DNA of 54,860 bases from Thermoleophilia bacterium (GTDB lineage: Bacteria > Actinomycetota > Thermoleophilia > Gaiellales > Gaiellaceae): positions 1 to 54,860 of the forward strand of contig JAICWC010000004.1 of NCBI GenBank assembly GCA_025934995.1, given 5' to 3'. Within the stretch, counting starts at the first letter, position 1. Each line of letters begins with the position of its first letter. Of the stretch, positions 38,127 to 44,504 are shown piece by piece. The translations under genes and the position numbers were made by a program. The notes under the pieces were generated by a model. That model worked only from the letters and a program-made list of their open reading frames with translations. It ran no database searches and had not been told where the DNA came from.

Positions 38127-38501
38127 GTGCAGCTGTACGCGCTCGACGACCTCTATGCGGTCGTCCGCCTCGAACCGGACGCGGACATTCCGCCCTGGGC
38201 GCGCACCGGCCACTTCTGGTCGGTCACGCGCTCCGACTCGGAACTGTCGGTCGTGTGCCCGCAGGAGCAGGTGCCGTCCGACGCGAGCGCCGAGCGCGGG
38301 TGGTGCGCCTTCGAGGTCGCGGGCCCGCTCGACTTCTCGCTCACCGGCATCGTCGCCTCGCTCGTGACGCCGCTCGCGGACGAGGACATCCCGCTCTTCG
38401 TCCTCTCGACCTTCGAGACGGACTACCTGCTCGTGCGCGAGCACGACCTCCACCGTTCGGTCGCCGCGCTCACCGCTGCGGGGCATTCCGTCGACGGGTG
38501 A
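38127..38501 (+). CDS. ACT-domain protein
   Basis: A 124-residue protein whose pattern (GWCAFEVAGPLDFSLTGIVASLVTPLADEDIPLFVLSTFETDYLLV) matches the two-ACT arrangement of small stand-alone ACT_7-type proteins. ACT domains bind amino acids or related ligands. It lies directly upstream of the trp leader, which raises the possibility of an amino-acid-sensing role, but the trp promoter starts after its stop. It begins with GTG and has no ribosome binding site. Confidence 0.8.
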   Translation: MQLYALDDLYAVVRLEPDADIPPWARTGHFWSVTRSDSELSVVCPQEQVPSDASAERGWCAFEVAGPLDFSLTGIVASLVTPLADEDIPLFVLSTFETDYLLVREHDLHRSVAALTAAGHSVDG

Positions 38502-38508
38502 AAGGCGC

Positions 38509-38514
38509 TAGGCT
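38509..38514 (+). promoter_or_regulatory. Putative -10 box of the trp operon
   Basis: TAGGCT, 7 nt before the ATG of the trp leader peptide, which would make the leader transcript leaderless. No clear -35 is seen. Confidence 0.5.
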
Positions 38515-38521
38515 CCGACCG

Positions 38522-38584
38522 ATGACTCCCTGCACGCGCACCTGGTGGACCTGGCGCAACGGGCCGTGCGGGAGCGTGCGCTAG
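38522..38584 (+). CDS. trpL: trp operon leader peptide
   Basis: A 20-residue open frame between the ACT-domain gene and trpE. It contains WWTW: Trp codons at 38543-38548 and 38552-38554, three of twenty residues, far above chance. It ends in TAG at 38582 and is followed 32 nt later by a terminator hairpin just before trpE. This is the standard layout of ribosome-mediated attenuation: stalling at Trp codons when charged tRNA-Trp is scarce lets the operon be read. GCACGC (38532-38537) can pair with GCGTGC (38574-38579) as the 1:2 stem. There is no Shine-Dalgarno sequence. Confidence 0.85.
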   Translation: MTPCTRTWWTWRNGPCGSVR

Positions 38585-38616
38585 GAGCGCCGACCGAACC
38601 CGCACCGCTCGATCCC

Positions 38617-38637
38617 GGCTCCGGAAGGAGCCTTTTT
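38617..38637 (+). terminator. Attenuator terminator of the trp operon, overlapping the trpE ribosome binding site
   Basis: GGCTCC-GGAA-GGAGCC followed by five T residues, ending one base before the trpE ATG at 38639. The trpE Shine-Dalgarno (GGAAGGAG, 38623-38630) is the loop plus the 3' arm, so the hairpin would block both transcription and ribosome entry. A competing pair GTGCGGG (38566-38572) with CCCGCAC (38599-38605) lies just upstream, and GGAGC at 38571 or 38584 can pair with the 5' arm. Confidence 0.85.
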
Positions 38638-38638
38638 C

Positions 38639-39850
38639 ATGCCGACAGCCGAAATCGCAACCGATCTCCTGACCCCGCTCGGGGCGTACCTACGGCTGCG
38701 GGACGGCGCCGCCGGCAGCTTTCTGCTCGAGTCCGTCGAGCGGGGACGACTCGGGAACCACTCGTTCGTCGGGCGCGGCTCGCGGCTCGTCTCGTTCGAC
38801 GAAGCCGAGGCGCTGGGCGAGCCGGTCGTCGGCTACCTCGGCTACGACGTCGTCTCGCGCCTCGAGCCGACCGTGCCCCTGCCCGAGGACGGGCCGGGCT
38901 GGCCGGAGAGCGTGTTCGTCGTGCCGGAGCTTCTCGTCCGCTTCGACCACGCGCGCGGCGTCGCGGAGGTCCTGCTCGGCGACCCGGCCGTGCTCGACGG
39001 ACCTCAGCCCGAGCTGCCCCGCGGCGGCGGCACGCGCGGGGAGCTCCGCCGCTTCCCCGAGCGGGACGAGCATCTGCGTCGGGTCGAGCGCGCGCAAGAG
39101 CACATCCGGGAGGGCGACGTGTTCCAGGTCGTGATCGCGCAGCGCGCGGAGCGCCCGACGAGCGCGAGCGCGCCCGAGCTCTATCGCGCGCTGCGCCGGG
39201 TCAATCCGTCTCCATATCTCTTCCTGCTCGAGCTCGGCGACCTCGCTCTCGTCGGCAGCTCACCGGAGACCGTGGTCAAGTGCGAGGGCTCGCGCGCCGC
39301 GCTGAACCCGATCGCCGGAACGATCGCGCCCGGCGAGGGCGACGCCGAAGCGCTGCTCTCGTCGGAGAAGGACCGCGCGGAGCACGTCATGCTCGTCGAC
39401 CTCGGCCGCAACGACCTCTCGCGCGTCTGCATCCCCGGCACCGTGCAGGTCGAGAAGTTCATGGAGCCGGAGCGGTACTCCCATGTCACGCACCTCGTCA
39501 GCGAAGTCGTCGGCGAGCTCCGCGACGACGTGACCCCGTTCGACCTGCTGCGCGCGTGCTTCCCGGCAGGCACGGTCTCCGGCGCGCCGAAGGTGCGCGC
39601 GATGCAGATCATCTCGGAGCTCGAGCAATACGCTCGCGGCATCTACGCGGGCGCGGTCGGCTACGTGCTGCCGCAGGAGCGCGCGATGGACACGTGCATC
39701 GCCATCCGCACGCTCGTCCTGCGCGACGGCGTCGCCCACCTGCAGGCGGGCGGCGGCATCGTCGCCGACAGCGATCCCTCGGCCGAGCACCAGGAATGCC
39801 TGAATAAGCTCGCTGCGTTGGAACAGGCGATCGAATTGGCCGAAGCATGA
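38639..39850 (+). CDS. trpE: Anthranilate synthase component I
   Basis: A 403-residue chorismate-utilising enzyme making anthranilate with ammonia delivered by TrpG. The tryptophan-feedback motif appears as LLES (29-32). The catalytic domain has VFQVVIAQRAERP, PSPYLFLLELGDLALVGSSPE, NPIAGTIAPGEGD, LLSSEKDRAEHVMLVDLGRND and FPAGTVSGAPKVRAM. It is roughly 80-100 residues shorter than many TrpE proteins, mostly in the N-terminal regulatory half. The ATG sits directly behind the attenuator. The stop overlaps trpG (ATGA). Confidence 0.95.
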   Translation: MPTAEIATDLLTPLGAYLRLRDGAAGSFLLESVERGRLGNHSFVGRGSRLVSFDEAEALGEPVVGYLGYDVVSRLEPTVPLPEDGPGWPESVFVVPELLVRFDHARGVAEVLLGDPAVLDGPQPELPRGGGTRGELRRFPERDEHLRRVERAQEHIREGDVFQVVIAQRAERPTSASAPELYRALRRVNPSPYLFLLELGDLALVGSSPETVVKCEGSRAALNPIAGTIAPGEGDAEALLSSEKDRAEHVMLVDLGRNDLSRVCIPGTVQVEKFMEPERYSHVTHLVSEVVGELRDDVTPFDLLRACFPAGTVSGAPKVRAMQIISELEQYARGIYAGAVGYVLPQERAMDTCIAIRTLVLRDGVAHLQAGGGIVADSDPSAEHQECLNKLAALEQAIELAEA

Positions 39851-40410
39851 TCCTCATCGTCGACAACTACGACTCCTTCACCTACAACCTCGCCCATCTG
39901 TTCGGGGCGCTCGGGGCGGAGGTGACCGTTCGCCGTAACGACGAGATCGACGCGGACGAGGCGGAGCGCCTGCAGCCGACGCAGCTCGTCGTCTCCCCCG
40001 GCCCGGGCCGCCCCGCCGATGCCGGCGCCTCGAAGGCGATCATCGATCGGCTCGCGCCGACGACGCCGACGCTGGGCGTCTGCCTGGGGCACCAGGCGAT
40101 CGTCGAAGTGTTCGGCGGCGAGGTCGGATACGCGCGCGAGCTGCTGCACGGAAAAGCGTCACCGGTGCGGCACGACGGGCGCGGACTGTTCACCGATCTG
40201 CCCGAGCCGTTCGACGCGGGCCGGTACCACTCGCTCGCTGCAACACGGCTGCCGGACGTGCTCGAACCGACGGCGCACGCGGACGACGGCGAGGTGATGG
40301 CGGTACGCCATCGAACGCTGCCGATCGTCGGGGTGCAGTTTCATCCCGAGTCGGTTCTGACCCCCGACGGGCCGACGCTCGCCCGCAACTTCCTCGCGGG
40401 GCTGCTGTGA
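39847..40410 (+). CDS. trpG: Anthranilate synthase component II (glutamine amidotransferase)
   Basis: A 187-residue class I glutamine amidotransferase supplying ammonia to TrpE. It begins ILIVDNYDSFTYNL, has the oxyanion motif SPGPGRP, the nucleophile C79 in GVCLGHQAI and the catalytic histidine and glutamate in VGVQFHPESVLT. PabA of folate synthesis is nearly the same protein; a shared role is possible, but its position in the trp operon favours TrpG. The ATG overlaps the trpE stop, and its own stop overlaps the trpD GTG (GTGA). Confidence 0.95.
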   Translation: MILIVDNYDSFTYNLAHLFGALGAEVTVRRNDEIDADEAERLQPTQLVVSPGPGRPADAGASKAIIDRLAPTTPTLGVCLGHQAIVEVFGGEVGYARELLHGKASPVRHDGRGLFTDLPEPFDAGRYHSLAATRLPDVLEPTAHADDGEVMAVRHRTLPIVGVQFHPESVLTPDGPTLARNFLAGLL

Positions 40411-41417
40411 TCCACGAGCTGATGGCACGCGTGCTCGACGGGCACGATCTGACACGCGCACAGGCGCACGACGCGATGCAGGAGATCATGAGCGGCGACG
40501 CGACACAGGCGCAGATCGCGGGCTTTCTCGTCGCGCTGCGCGCGAAGGGCGAGACCGCCGACGAGATCGCAGGGTGCGCGGAGGCGATGCGCGAGCACGT
40601 TCTCCCCGTCCAGCCGAAGCGCGAGGACCTCGTCGACACCGCCGGCACGGGCGGCGACGGCAAGAGCACGCTCAACATCTCGACCGCCGCCGCGCTCGTC
40701 GCGGCCGCCGCCGGGGCCGGCGTCGCGAAGCACGGCAACCGGGCGGCGTCGTCGCAGACCGGATCCGCCGACGTGCTCGAAGCGCTCGGCTTCGAGCTCG
40801 ACCTCGCGCCGGGGAGGATTGCGCAATCGATCGACGAGCTCGGGTTCGGGTTCATGTTCGCGCAGGCCCACCATCCCGCGATGAAGCACGCCGCACCGGT
40901 CAGACGCGAGCTCGGAACGCGTACGGTGTTCAACGTGCTCGGACCGCTCACCAACCCGGCACGCGCACGGGCGCAGGTGGTCGGCGTCTACTCGCCGGAC
41001 CTCGTGCGACCGGTCGCGGAAGCGCTCGCGCAGCTCGGGTCGCGGCGCGCGTTCGTCGTGCACGGCGCGGGCGGGATCGACGAGCTCTCGCCGGTCGGCC
41101 CGAGCCAGGTCTCCGAGGTTGTCGACGGCGGCGTTCGCGACCGCGTCATCGATCCGACGGAGCTCGGGATCGAGCCGTGCGAGCTCGCGTCGCTCGCCGG
41201 CGGCACTCCCGAGGAGAACGCGGCGTCGATCCGGCGGGTCTTCGGCGGCGAGCGGGGCGGCCCGCGCGACGCGATCCTGCTCAACGCCGCCGGGGCGATC
41301 GCTGCGGGCGGACATGCGGCCGATCTGCGTGAGGGGATCGCGATCGCCCGCGCTGCGGTCGATTCCGGCGCGGCCGCGTCGCGGCTCGACGAGCTGGTGG
41401 AGTTCACCCATGCCTAG
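40407..41417 (+). CDS. trpD: Anthranilate phosphoribosyltransferase
   Basis: A 336-residue enzyme transferring phosphoribose from PRPP to anthranilate. It has the PRPP/Mg loop VDTAGTGGDGKSTLNIST, KHGNRAASSQTGSADVLEALG and RTVFNVLGPLTNPA, all diagnostic. The GTG start at 40407 overlaps the trpG stop. The last 8 nt overlap the start of trpCF (ATGCCTAG), so translation is coupled. Confidence 0.96.
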   Translation: MIHELMARVLDGHDLTRAQAHDAMQEIMSGDATQAQIAGFLVALRAKGETADEIAGCAEAMREHVLPVQPKREDLVDTAGTGGDGKSTLNISTAAALVAAAAGAGVAKHGNRAASSQTGSADVLEALGFELDLAPGRIAQSIDELGFGFMFAQAHHPAMKHAAPVRRELGTRTVFNVLGPLTNPARARAQVVGVYSPDLVRPVAEALAQLGSRRAFVVHGAGGIDELSPVGPSQVSEVVDGGVRDRVIDPTELGIEPCELASLAGGTPEENAASIRRVFGGERGGPRDAILLNAAGAIAAGGHAADLREGIAIARAAVDSGAAASRLDELVEFTHA

Positions 41418-42570
41418 GTTCGCCGACGCGTTGTCGAAGCCCGGCCTCGGTGCGATCGCCGAGGTGAAACGGCGCTCGCCGTCCGCAGGCGACCTTCGTC
41501 CGGACGCCGATCCGGCTCGGCTCGCGGCGCAGTTCGCGTCAGCCGGCGCGGCCGCGGTCAGCGTCTTGGTCGACGAGCGCTTCGGCGGCACGATCGACGA
41601 CCTGCGCGCCGCGCGGGCGGCAACCGACGCGCCGCTCCTCGGCAAGGGCTTCTTCTCGACCGAGGAGCATTTGCGAGAGCTGAAGGAAGCGGGCGCCGAC
41701 GCGGTCCTGTTGCTCCTGCGCGACCTCGACGACGCGACGTGCGCGCGACTGCTCGCCTACACGCACGAGCTCGGCCTCGACGCGCTCGTCGAGGCGCACG
41801 ACGCCGACGAGCTGCAACGGGCGATGGCGCTCGACGCGCCGATCGTCGGCATCAATGCGCGCGACCTCGAGACGTTCGCGATCGACCGTCGCACACAACT
41901 GCAGCTCGTCGCACGCGCGCCGAAGGACCGGATCGTCATCGCCGAGAGCGGCGTGCACACGCGCGCGCAGGGTGCGGCGGCCGAGCTCGCGGGAGCGGAT
42001 GCGATCCTCGTCGGCTCTGCATTGATGAGGGCGTCCGATCCCGCAGCGAAGCTGCGCGACCTCTTGCGCCGGCCGCTCGTGAAGGTGTGCGGGTTGACCC
42101 GGCAGGAGGACGTCGACGCCGCGGTCGAGGCCGGCGCCGACCTGCTGGGCTTCATCCACGTCGAGGCGAGCCCGCGTAGGAGCGACACGGTGCTCGACGT
42201 CCCGGAGACCCAGCTCGCCGTGTCGGTGTTCGTGGAGGAGACCCGCGAGACGCCGGCCGACCTCATCCAGTTCTATCCCGATCGCGGCGCCGGCGTGCGC
42301 GGCCGCGAGGCGTTGTTGCTGCGCGACGGCGTTCGGGTCGGCACGCTCCTCGATCAGCCGTGGGACGAACACGACGCGCTGCACTGGAGCCGGGCCGCCG
42401 AGGCGAAGGGCCGGATCATGCTGGCGGGCGGCCTCGGTCCGGAGAACGTGCGCGATGCGATCGCGGCCGTGCGTCCGTGGGCGGTCGACGCATCGTCGTC
42501 GCTGGAATCGGAGCCGGGTGTGAAGGATCACGCGCGCGTGCGCGCCTACGTCGAGGCCGCACATGCGTGA
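41410..42570 (+). CDS. trpCF: Fused indole-3-glycerol phosphate synthase / phosphoribosylanthranilate isomerase
   Basis: A 386-residue bifunctional protein. Residues about 1-222 are Trp[64 protein letters not shown] and [10 protein letters not shown]. Residues about 225-386 are a TrpF domain with the catalytic cysteine in [22 protein letters not shown] and the catalytic aspartate in VDASSSLE...PGVKD. TrpF is short (about 160 residues), and the central QLHG(D/N)E region is not recognisable; [13 protein letters not shown] stands there. Many actinobacteria lack TrpF and use PriA instead. The ATG overlaps trpD by 8 nt; the stop overlaps trpB by 8 nt. Confidence 0.9.
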
Positions 42571-43690
42571 CTTCGGCGACTACGGCGGGCGCTACGTGCC
42601 CGAGACGTTGATCCCGGCGCTCGACGAGCTCGAGCGCGCTTGGGAGGAGGCGCAGGCGGACGACGCGTTCCATGCCGAGCTGCACGCGCTCGCGACGACG
42701 TATGTGGGCCGACCGTCGCCGTTGACGCTCATCGAGCGGTTCGCGCCGGGCAAGAAGATCTATCTCAAGCGCGAGGATCTGAACCACACCGGCGCCCACA
42801 AGATCAACAACGCCGTCGGCCAGGCGGTGCTCGCAAAGCGCCTCGGCAAGCAGCGGATCGTGGCCGAGACGGGCGCAGGCCAGCATGGCGTCGCGACCGC
42901 GACCGTGTGCGCGCGCTTCGGCTTCGAGTGCGTCGTCTACATGGGCGTCGAGGACATGCGGCGCCAGAGGCCGAACGTCGAGCGCATGCGGCTGCTCGGC
43001 GCCGAGGTGCGTAGCGTCGACTTCGGGACGAAGACGCTGAAGGAGGCGACGAGCGAGGCGATCCGCGACTGGATCACGAACGTCGAGACGACGCACTACC
43101 TCATCGGCTCGTGCGTCGGGCCGGCGCCCTATCCCGAGCTCGTCGCGGAACTGCAGAGCGTGATCGGGCGCGAGGCGCGCGAGCAGTTTCTCGCAGCGGC
43201 CGACGCACTGCCAGAAGCAGTGGTCGCGTGTGTCGGAGGCGGCTCGAACGCGATCGGCCTCTTCCGCGGCTTCGTCGACGACGTCGGCGTGCGGCTCGTC
43301 GGTGTCGAGGCCGCGGGCGCGGCGTCGCTGGCCTCGGGGCGGGTCGGCGTGCTGCACGGCGCACGGTCGTCGATCCTCGCGGACGAGGACGGCCAGGTCG
43401 CGGACGCGCACTCGATCTCGGCCGGGCTCGATTATCCGGGCGTCGGCCCGGAGCATGCATTCCTGCGCGACACCGGCCGGGCGGAGTACCGGACGGCGAC
43501 CGACGAGGACGCGATCGCCGCGTTCGCCGACCTCGCGCGTACGGAGGGCATCATCCCCGCGCTCGAGCCGGCCCACGCGCTCGCGCGCGCACGCGACCTC
43601 GACGCGGAGCTGATCCTCGTCGGCCTGAGCGGCCGCGGCGACAAAGATCTCGCCGAGGTGCTCGACCGCCTCGACCCGGCGAACGCGTGA
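42563..43690 (+). CDS. trpB: Tryptophan synthase beta chain
   Basis: A 375-residue PLP enzyme condensing indole with serine. It starts [21 protein letters not shown] and has the PLP lysine K80 in [30 protein letters not shown], the GGGSNA phosphate loop ([12 protein letters not shown]) and [14 protein letters not shown]. This is the conventional TrpB1 type that works with TrpA. The ATG overlaps the trpCF stop (ATGCGTGA). It is followed by 112 nt before trpA, the only sizeable gap in the operon. Confidence 0.97.
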
Positions 43691-43753
43691 CGCTCGACCG
43701 AAGCTTGACCCGTCCGACCCAGCCGAGCCCGAAAGGTGCCGAGCCCGCCGCAA

Positions 43754-43808
43754 CCTCCCAACCCTCGAAAAAGGGGTTATCCCCTTTTAGGAGAGTTGAG
43801 GGTTGAGG
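43754..43808 (+). promoter_or_regulatory. Nested hairpin covering the trpA start codon
   Basis: The inner stem is AAAAGGGG-TTAT-CCCCTTTT (43769-43788). The outer stem is CAACCCTC (43759-43766) with GAGGGTTG (43798-43805), extendable by CCT/AGG across a bulge. The trpA TTG (43803-43805) lies in the outer stem, and its Shine-Dalgarno AGGAG (43789-43793) is in the asymmetric bulge between them. The region is AT-richer than its surroundings. Confidence 0.6.
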
Positions 43809-44504
43809 AAGGCGCTCGTCATCTATCTGATGGCAGAGCCGGAGACGCCGGAGCTCGCGCGCGCCGCCGTTGACGGCGGCGCGGACATCATCGAGTTCGG
43901 CTTTCCGTACAGCGATCCGCTCGCCGACGGGCCGGTGATCCGGCGCGCCGGCGAGCGCGCGCTCGCGCGCGGGATGCGCACGAAGCAATGTCTCGACGTC
44001 CTCGCGCGCACGCGCGAGCTCGTCGGCCCCGACACGCCGCTGATCCCCATGACGTACTCCTCGCTGTACGAGGCGTACGGGTGGGACCGGCTGACCGACG
44101 AGATCCGCGCGCACGGCGGGACGAGCATGATCGTCTCCGACCTCCCCGCCGGAGAGCGCCCGGAGCTGAAGCGTGTGCAACTCGTCGCGCCGACGTCGAC
44201 CGACGAGCGAATCGCGCTCGCAGGCGAGCAGACGGACGGCTGGCTCTATCTCGTGACCGTGACCGGGACGACCGGCGCGCGTCACGAGGTCTCCCCCGCG
44301 CTCGCCGGGCTCGTCGAGCGGACGCGGCGCCTGACGACCAAGCCGCTCTACGCAGGCTTCGGCATCTCGACGCCGGAGCACGCGCGAGCGGCGGCCGCCC
44401 TCGCCGACGGCATAGCGGTCGGAACGCGCGCCGTGCAGGTGGCGGAAGAGGGACCGGACGCGCTCCGCACGTACGTCGCGTCGCTTCGCTCCGCGTTGGA
44501 CTAG
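43803..44504 (+). CDS. trpA: Tryptophan synthase alpha chain
   Basis: A 233-residue TIM-barrel enzyme that splits indole-3-glycerol phosphate to indole for TrpB. The catalytic glutamate is in IIEFGFPYSDPLADGPV and the aspartate in the same SDPLADGP motif; YAGFGISTPEHARAA and AVGTRAVQ are the phosphate-binding loops. It is about 30 residues shorter than typical TrpA because it lacks the usual N-terminal helix before the first strand (RKALVIYLMAEPE). The start is TTG with AGGAG 9 nt upstream, inside a hairpin. It is the last gene of the operon. Confidence 0.94.
   Translation: MRKALVIYLMAEPETPELARAAVDGGADIIEFGFPYSDPLADGPVIRRAGERALARGMRTKQCLDVLARTRELVGPDTPLIPMTYSSLYEAYGWDRLTDEIRAHGGTSMIVSDLPAGERPELKRVQLVAPTSTDERIALAGEQTDGWLYLVTVTGTTGARHEVSPALAGLVERTRRLTTKPLYAGFGISTPEHARAAAALADGIAVGTRAVQVAEEGPDALRTYVASLRSALD

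Follow-up and report, generated by a model that had tools for sequence, protein, structure and literature searches.

A putative leaderless attenuator of the trp operon in Gaiellaceae-type bacteria, with a predicted ribosome-controlled stem abutting the terminator

The window analysed here is a stretch of 54,860 nucleotides (contig 35) from a Gaiellaceae-type genome of the Thermoleophilia, 2.85 Mb in size and 88% complete. A short reading frame with Trp codons and a hairpin followed by a run of T are found directly in front of trpE, and the question raised by this locus is by which RNA structures, and by which start of transcription and translation, such a leader could control the trp operon. 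An earlier note on this DNA had described a 20-codon frame containing WWTW, a GC hairpin with five T and a trpE gene starting one base further. All of these were read in the sequence, and the observation at 38509-38641 was confirmed. A single C at 38638 separates the T-run from the trpE ATG at 38639, and seven nucleotides are found between the TAGGCT box and the leader ATG at 38522. The 7-bp stem 38566-38572/38599-38605 of the same note was found to be real and to be the core of a longer stem, P1. The features are listed in Table 1.

The joint explanation of these features, to which we assign a probability of about 0.8, is that transcription of the trp operon is attenuated by a ribosome on a leaderless leader mRNA, with P1 keeping the terminator open. 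RNA polymerase would start at the leader ATG or within about 2 nt of it, and the ribosome would initiate at this ATG without a Shine-Dalgarno site. When Trp-tRNA is scarce, the ribosome would wait at the Trp codons just upstream of P1. P1 would then form, the adjacent terminator would be kept from closing and trpEGDCFBA would be transcribed. When Trp-tRNA is plentiful, the ribosome would cross the 5' arm of P1 as far as the stop codon, which lies in the loop of this stem; P1 would not form and the terminator would halt transcription.

Table 1. Features of the trp leader and operon in the window (positions of the whole stretch).
Feature	Position	Strand	Basis or remark
-10 box TAGGCT, leader promoter	38509..38514	+	read directly; TANNNT box kept in relatives
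Leader ORF MTPCTRTWWTWRNGPCGSVR*, 20 codons, WWTW	38522..38584	+	read directly; relatives compared
Trp codons of leader ORF	38543, 38546, 38552	+	read directly
Stem P1, 5' arm CGGGCCGTGCGGG, within leader ORF	38560..38572	+	12/13 paired; compensatory changes
Stem P1, 3' arm CCCGCACCGCTCG	38599..38611	+	5-nt gap to terminator hairpin
Intrinsic terminator hairpin GGCTCC-GGAA-GGAGCC	38617..38632	+	sequence read; -12.4 kcal/mol
U-tract, five T	38633..38637	+	read directly
trpE Shine-Dalgarno AAGGAG, terminator loop and 3' arm	38625..38630	+	ends 8 nt before trpE ATG
trpE, anthranilate synthase component I	38639..39850	+	Pfam PF00425, PF04715
trpG, trpD, trpC-trpF, trpB, trpA	39847..44504	+	ORFs; Pfam for trpG, trpD, trpB, trpA

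The assignment of trpC-trpF was made by eye from the list of ORFs, and the two genes apparently form one fused reading frame (41119-42570). TrpE is short, with 403 aa, and its matches in the family are of similar length. Its N-terminal Pfam family was matched in two pieces (1-38 and 92-134), with about 50 residues of the domain missing. An ACT-domain gene (38127-38501; 124 aa; PF13840, PF21631) is located on the same strand and ends 7 nt upstream of the leader -10 box. It is a possible amino-acid sensor beside the trp operon.

Loci of trpE were collected by a scan of genome contigs together with a family search. Relatives were kept at a TrpE identity of at least 64% and with at least 200 nt of upstream sequence, one for each distinct upstream sequence, resulting in 64 regions. 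The initial leader call (55/60) was made by a rule favouring starts with a TANNNT box. After this call three starts or stops were set by eye (L043 and L029 among them) and the false frames of L070 and L082 were removed. Of the 64 regions, 58 had a leader, which was 19-26 codons long and contained 2-4 Trp codons; these counts are not independent, as the sequences are akin and mostly from metagenome assemblies. The number of Trp codons was two in 14 leaders, three in 37 and four in 7, and the start codon was ATG in 51 and GTG in 7. Conservation of the Trp codons in related genomes, proposed as a check in the earlier note, was thereby observed. No leader was found in six regions (L011, L047, L055, L070, L082 and L091). 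The first of these belongs to G031, a genome of the window's genus that is 95% complete; here trpS has a leader and trpE is without one, and an ACT-domain gene abuts trpE. The genome that carries L088 falls outside the class, and the TrpE of L064 is 84% identical though its record is labelled Acidobacteriota.

The distance from the end of the TANNNT box to the leader start was 8, 7, 9, 6 and 10 nt in 22, 21, 7, 5 and 3 of the 58 leaders, respectively. A box at 6-9 nt was thus seen in 55/58 leaders; in 500 shuffles the mean was 0.99 and the highest value 6. With starts chosen blind to the promoter, by taking the ATG or GTG closest upstream to the first Trp codon, the number was 52/58. The same spacing occurred at 56 of all 2358 plus-strand ATGs of these loci, leaders included. 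An SD-like 4-mer 4-11 nt upstream of the leader start was found in two of the 58 leaders. TTG preceded the -10 box by 16-18 nt in 53/58 leaders, as TTGACG or TTGACC in 38, and was absent at this distance from the window, L033, L064, L042 and L065. In L057, L066, L068, L072, L083, L090 and L096 a TTGCGCATTnAA nCAGG-like stretch, possibly a regulator site, takes the place of the TTGACG -35. A -10 box is usually followed by the transcription start after six nucleotides. Combined with the observed spacing, this rule would place the start at the first codon or at most 4 nt upstream, and for the window we infer a start at the ATG 38522 or 1-2 nt before it. The leader mRNA is very probably leaderless, judged by the near-fixed box in front of the start and the near absence of an SD-like 4-mer. 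The reading of the TAGGCT box 7 nt before the ATG as the mark of a leaderless leader, as given in the earlier note, is thus supported by indirect evidence.

P1 joins an arm of 13 positions shortly downstream of the Trp codons to one of equal length shortly upstream of the terminator. In the window 12 of the 13 pairs can form, compared to a shuffled mean of 9.6 (p 0.02). Over the relatives the mean was 11.2 pairs compared to 9.3 after shuffling, with p <=0.05 in only 36/58 leaders. Covariation was studied on an alignment (A1) of 50 leaders, taken from a set of 52 with L038 and L057 left out; the set of 52 omits L063 and the five leaders without a terminator call. RNAalifold picked most of P1 from the 50 aligned leaders unprompted, although the covariation term was small, at -0.1 kcal/mol. 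On the alignment 89.7% of the P1 cells pair, and double changes were observed in 5/13 pairs. The covariation score of P1, uncorrected for relatedness, was 0.137 and above all 500 shuffles (0.092 +/- 0.007), and registers slid along the alignment reached at most 0.066.

The placement of the terminator relative to P1 was constant. In 50/50 leaders the terminator started -1 to 6 nt past the next-to-last base of P1 (mean 2.9, s.d. 2.1); the length of the P1 loop was about equally constant (s.d. 2.5). P1 ended 0-6 nt before the terminator and had no strand in common with it in 49/50 leaders, including the window with its 5-nt gap. In the sister-family leaders L156 and L188 a folded stem directly adjoins the terminator. 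The leader stop codon of the window falls in the P1 loop. It is the constant position of the terminator beside P1 that favours P1 as the antiterminator. The GCGGGAGC strand was nearly invariant, yet its AGC is located outside P1. This block was in another reading frame in 3/58 leaders, and in the other 55 the wobble bases were near-fixed, with GAG for Glu in 48/48 cases and AGC for Ser in 52/52. The frame differences and the near-fixed wobble bases indicate that RNA and not peptide is conserved at this block. Sensing mediated by the peptide was rejected on account of the three leaders with the block in another frame.

Folding with a masked ribosome was performed on the 52 leaders. The mean probability of P1 was 0.90 when the mask ended at least 9 nt before the anchor. 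It fell to 0.73 at 6 nt, 0.41 at 3 nt and 0.20 at the anchor itself, and P1 was lost (0.00) once the mask had passed it. For the window the probability of P1 was 0.92 with either of the first two Trp codons in the A site; it dropped to 0.53 for the last Trp codon and to 0.00 for the stop codon. In these computations P1 depends on the position of the ribosome in the way expected of an antiterminator. At equilibrium the terminator formed in every state, with a mean of 0.79 in the free RNA and of 0.94, 0.96 and 0.97 otherwise. The terminator of the E. coli trpL control also formed in all states (at least 0.94), and equilibrium folding of full-length leaders under a ribosome mask is for this reason uninformative. 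Transcripts cut before the 3' arm of the terminator gave a sequestration of 0.62 at Trp vs 0.01 at the stop for E. coli trpL. In the leaders studied here no general switch of this kind was seen, the last-Trp state exceeding the stop state by 0.2 in only 12/52. An intrinsic hairpin with a T-run was found by scan in 53/58 leaders, among them L063, for which it was drawn wrongly.

How P1 would keep the terminator open can be proposed tentatively. A stem abutting the terminator could antiterminate by crowding the base of the terminator, presumably at the RNA polymerase exit channel, with no capture of a strand. Such leaders would form a lineage-specific class of attenuators, in which the untranslated default would be read-through, the opposite of E. 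coli trp. This mechanism is considered possible rather than likely.

A structure model of the leader (R1) had matches in 29/149 genomes of a class sample: 27/30 in the window's family, 1/3 in the sister family and 1/116 in other genomes, the last apparently in a coding region. In a phylum sample 4/198 matched, one of them outside the class (G375, with TrpE and leader the same as L088). A second match was found in five genomes (G031, G040, G049, G052 and G056). Four of these second matches are directly before trpS, as found by protein search, and the fifth is before a trpS-like start assigned by eye. The Trp leaders of trpS in the five genomes are L151, L152, L153, L154 and L155. Judged by eye, three of them have no clear terminator, and control by other means may apply there. 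L151 and L155 retain the terminator, with the GAGCGG/CCGCTC stem present and the GGGAG strand absent by eye. TrpS was found in 51/61 genomes of the family and was not found in the window's own genome. Outside the family 40 trpE upstream regions were examined. A Trp leader was recognized by eye in two, L188 and L189 of the sister family, and also in L156. A scan of the 40 regions resulted in TANNNT-supported Trp ORFs in L188, L190, L195 and L204; all but that of L188 were far upstream and unconvincing. L190, L191 and L194, from another family of the class, have in common a GTGLWW frame about 1.4-1.5 kb before the match, with no Rfam family. Rfam gave no match in the 40 outside regions. In 20 further loci, including the six leader-free regions, the sole Rfam match was a tRNA-Sec (L091:2318-2409, minus strand) near a leader-free trpE locus.

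The second pairing of the earlier note, between GGAGC and the terminator's 5' arm, can be drawn on paper but was demoted as an antiterminator. Its probability was 0.00 in the window in every state tested, it exceeded 0.5 in at most 15/52 leaders and no double changes were seen on the alignment, although this last test is uninformative for a strand that is invariant. The same pairing is central to an explanation along E. coli-like lines, which is considered unlikely. P1 would here be an anti-antiterminator or a pause hairpin, and a ribosome at the last Trp codon would mask the outer part of P1 and free GGGCGGGAGC, which would pair with the terminator's pyrimidine-rich 5' arm to give the true antiterminator. 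This would account for the near invariance of the GCGGGAGC strand, including its AGC outside P1. With the mask at the anchor the pairing exceeded 0.5 in 15/52 leaders, the duplex z-score had a mean of -0.97 with p <=0.05 in 9/52, and L046, L058, L059 and L094 were among the leaders that sequester the terminator arm at the last Trp codon in cut transcripts. However, besides the low probabilities given above, the earlier Trp codons would be counter-productive, because a ribosome waiting there would keep P1 and hence termination. Furthermore, the trpS leaders L151 and L155 have a terminator without the GGGAG strand.

Two other explanations concern the ends of the leader. The GGAGCCTTTTTCATG arrangement of the window puts AAGGAG within the terminator, with a mean unpaired probability of 0.33 in folding, and the hairpin is also present when the read-through mRNA is folded. 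Control by Trp could be translational, with the hairpin acting mainly on trpE through the buried Shine-Dalgarno site. This is improbable, as the TTTTTCATG arrangement, with the trpE site in the terminator, was found in 7/9 leaders whose TrpE shows 76% identity or more and in 0/49 others, and hairpin and T-run together occur in 53/58. A looser test, which asked for an SD-like 4-mer within the terminator ahead of any possible start codon, was positive in 10/53. The double duty of the hairpin is by its limitation to close relatives a feature of a clade, and the hidden ribosome site described in the earlier note holds for the window and these relatives and not for the other 49 leaders. In the window's genus the terminator may also hold back translation of trpE. 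At the other end, the leader mRNA might not be leaderless at all: transcription that began at a promoter further upstream, or that ran on from the ACT-domain gene, would give it a 5' untranslated region, and the leader would be translated by some other route. The co-directional ACT-domain gene stopping so close to the -10 box and the missing TTG -35 of the window would fit. The TTG present in 53/58 leaders, the near-fixed TANNNT distance in 55/58 and the absence of an SD-like 4-mer from 56/58 speak against it, and it is considered very improbable.

An attenuator with a leaderless leader, with P1 as its ribosome-controlled stem, is thus the preferred reading. Leaderless amino-acid attenuation would by this be extended to a deep, mostly uncultured actinobacterial lineage. 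More than 50 natural variants are available in which every element, from the promoter and start codon through the Trp codons to the stem and the terminator, is placed to within a few nucleotides. They are well suited to the study of how a ribosome that loads without a 5' leader keeps up with RNA polymerase. Should the abutting stem be the antiterminator, an antiterminator would not need to have a strand in common with the terminator. Rfam families, including the trp leader and T-box, gave no match in the window at gathering score, and three weak matches at 38400-38750 were at chance level. The parts of the literature on attenuators and leader peptides that were consulted contained no Gaiella attenuator, a search of print that cannot exclude a prior description. 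What is new is a lineage-wide element outside Rfam, in which by sequence and folding a ribosome-controlled stem abuts the terminator and the strands are separate. Leaderless poly-cysteine leader ORFs of mycobacteria are reportedly amino-acid-responsive attenuators (Canestrari 2020). These are likewise leaderless short ORFs in Actinobacteria, with cysteine in place of Trp and, in a paper citing that work, a description as translation attenuation.

Several known systems can be compared by their descriptions. A stalled-ribosome model is given for M. tuberculosis ilvB1 (PMC13236596), a start site in front of trpL for C. glutamicum trp (PMC11995493), and leaderless small ORFs are treated in PMC4633059. 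In the three-hairpin model of C. glutamicum ilvBNC the bases of antiterminator and terminator are adjacent and competition at their boundary decides termination; these hairpins overlap by three nucleotides, GCC (PMC11857589), whereas P1 ends 0-6 nt short of the terminator. Seliverstov et al. (2005) predicted classical attenuators before the trp operons of Corynebacterium and Streptomyces and before one trpS, with complementary triples gGCC-rGCy-GGCC common to antiterminator and terminator (PMC1262725). In the present leaders the equivalent triple would be GGGAG, the pyrimidine arm and GGAGG, and it was unsupported as a stable antiterminator in most of them. In Sinorhizobium meliloti trpL-trpE(G) the transcript is reported to begin at the trpL ATG and to be leaderless (Bae and Crawford 1990, cited in PMC7298713). 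By description it has, like the window, a leader peptide with Trp codons, a start that in the window is very probably leaderless too, and a terminator before trpE(G), but it belongs to an Alphaproteobacterium and its peptide has 14 residues (PMC7298713). For Streptomyces lividans TK24 trpL1, with the leader MFAHSTRNWWWTAHPAAH*, a leaderless transcript is likewise reported (PMC8079986), and the earlier note's presentation of a leaderless leader as a departure from known attenuators was therefore overstated. The S. lividans leader, as described, is also actinobacterial, with hairpins and a U-rich stretch before trpE, and the species has a leaderless leader before trpS, as in five genomes here; it differs in its monocistronic trpE and in the leader sequence (PMC8079986). 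The logic of leaderless trp attenuation is thus known, and the structure found here is specific to its lineage.
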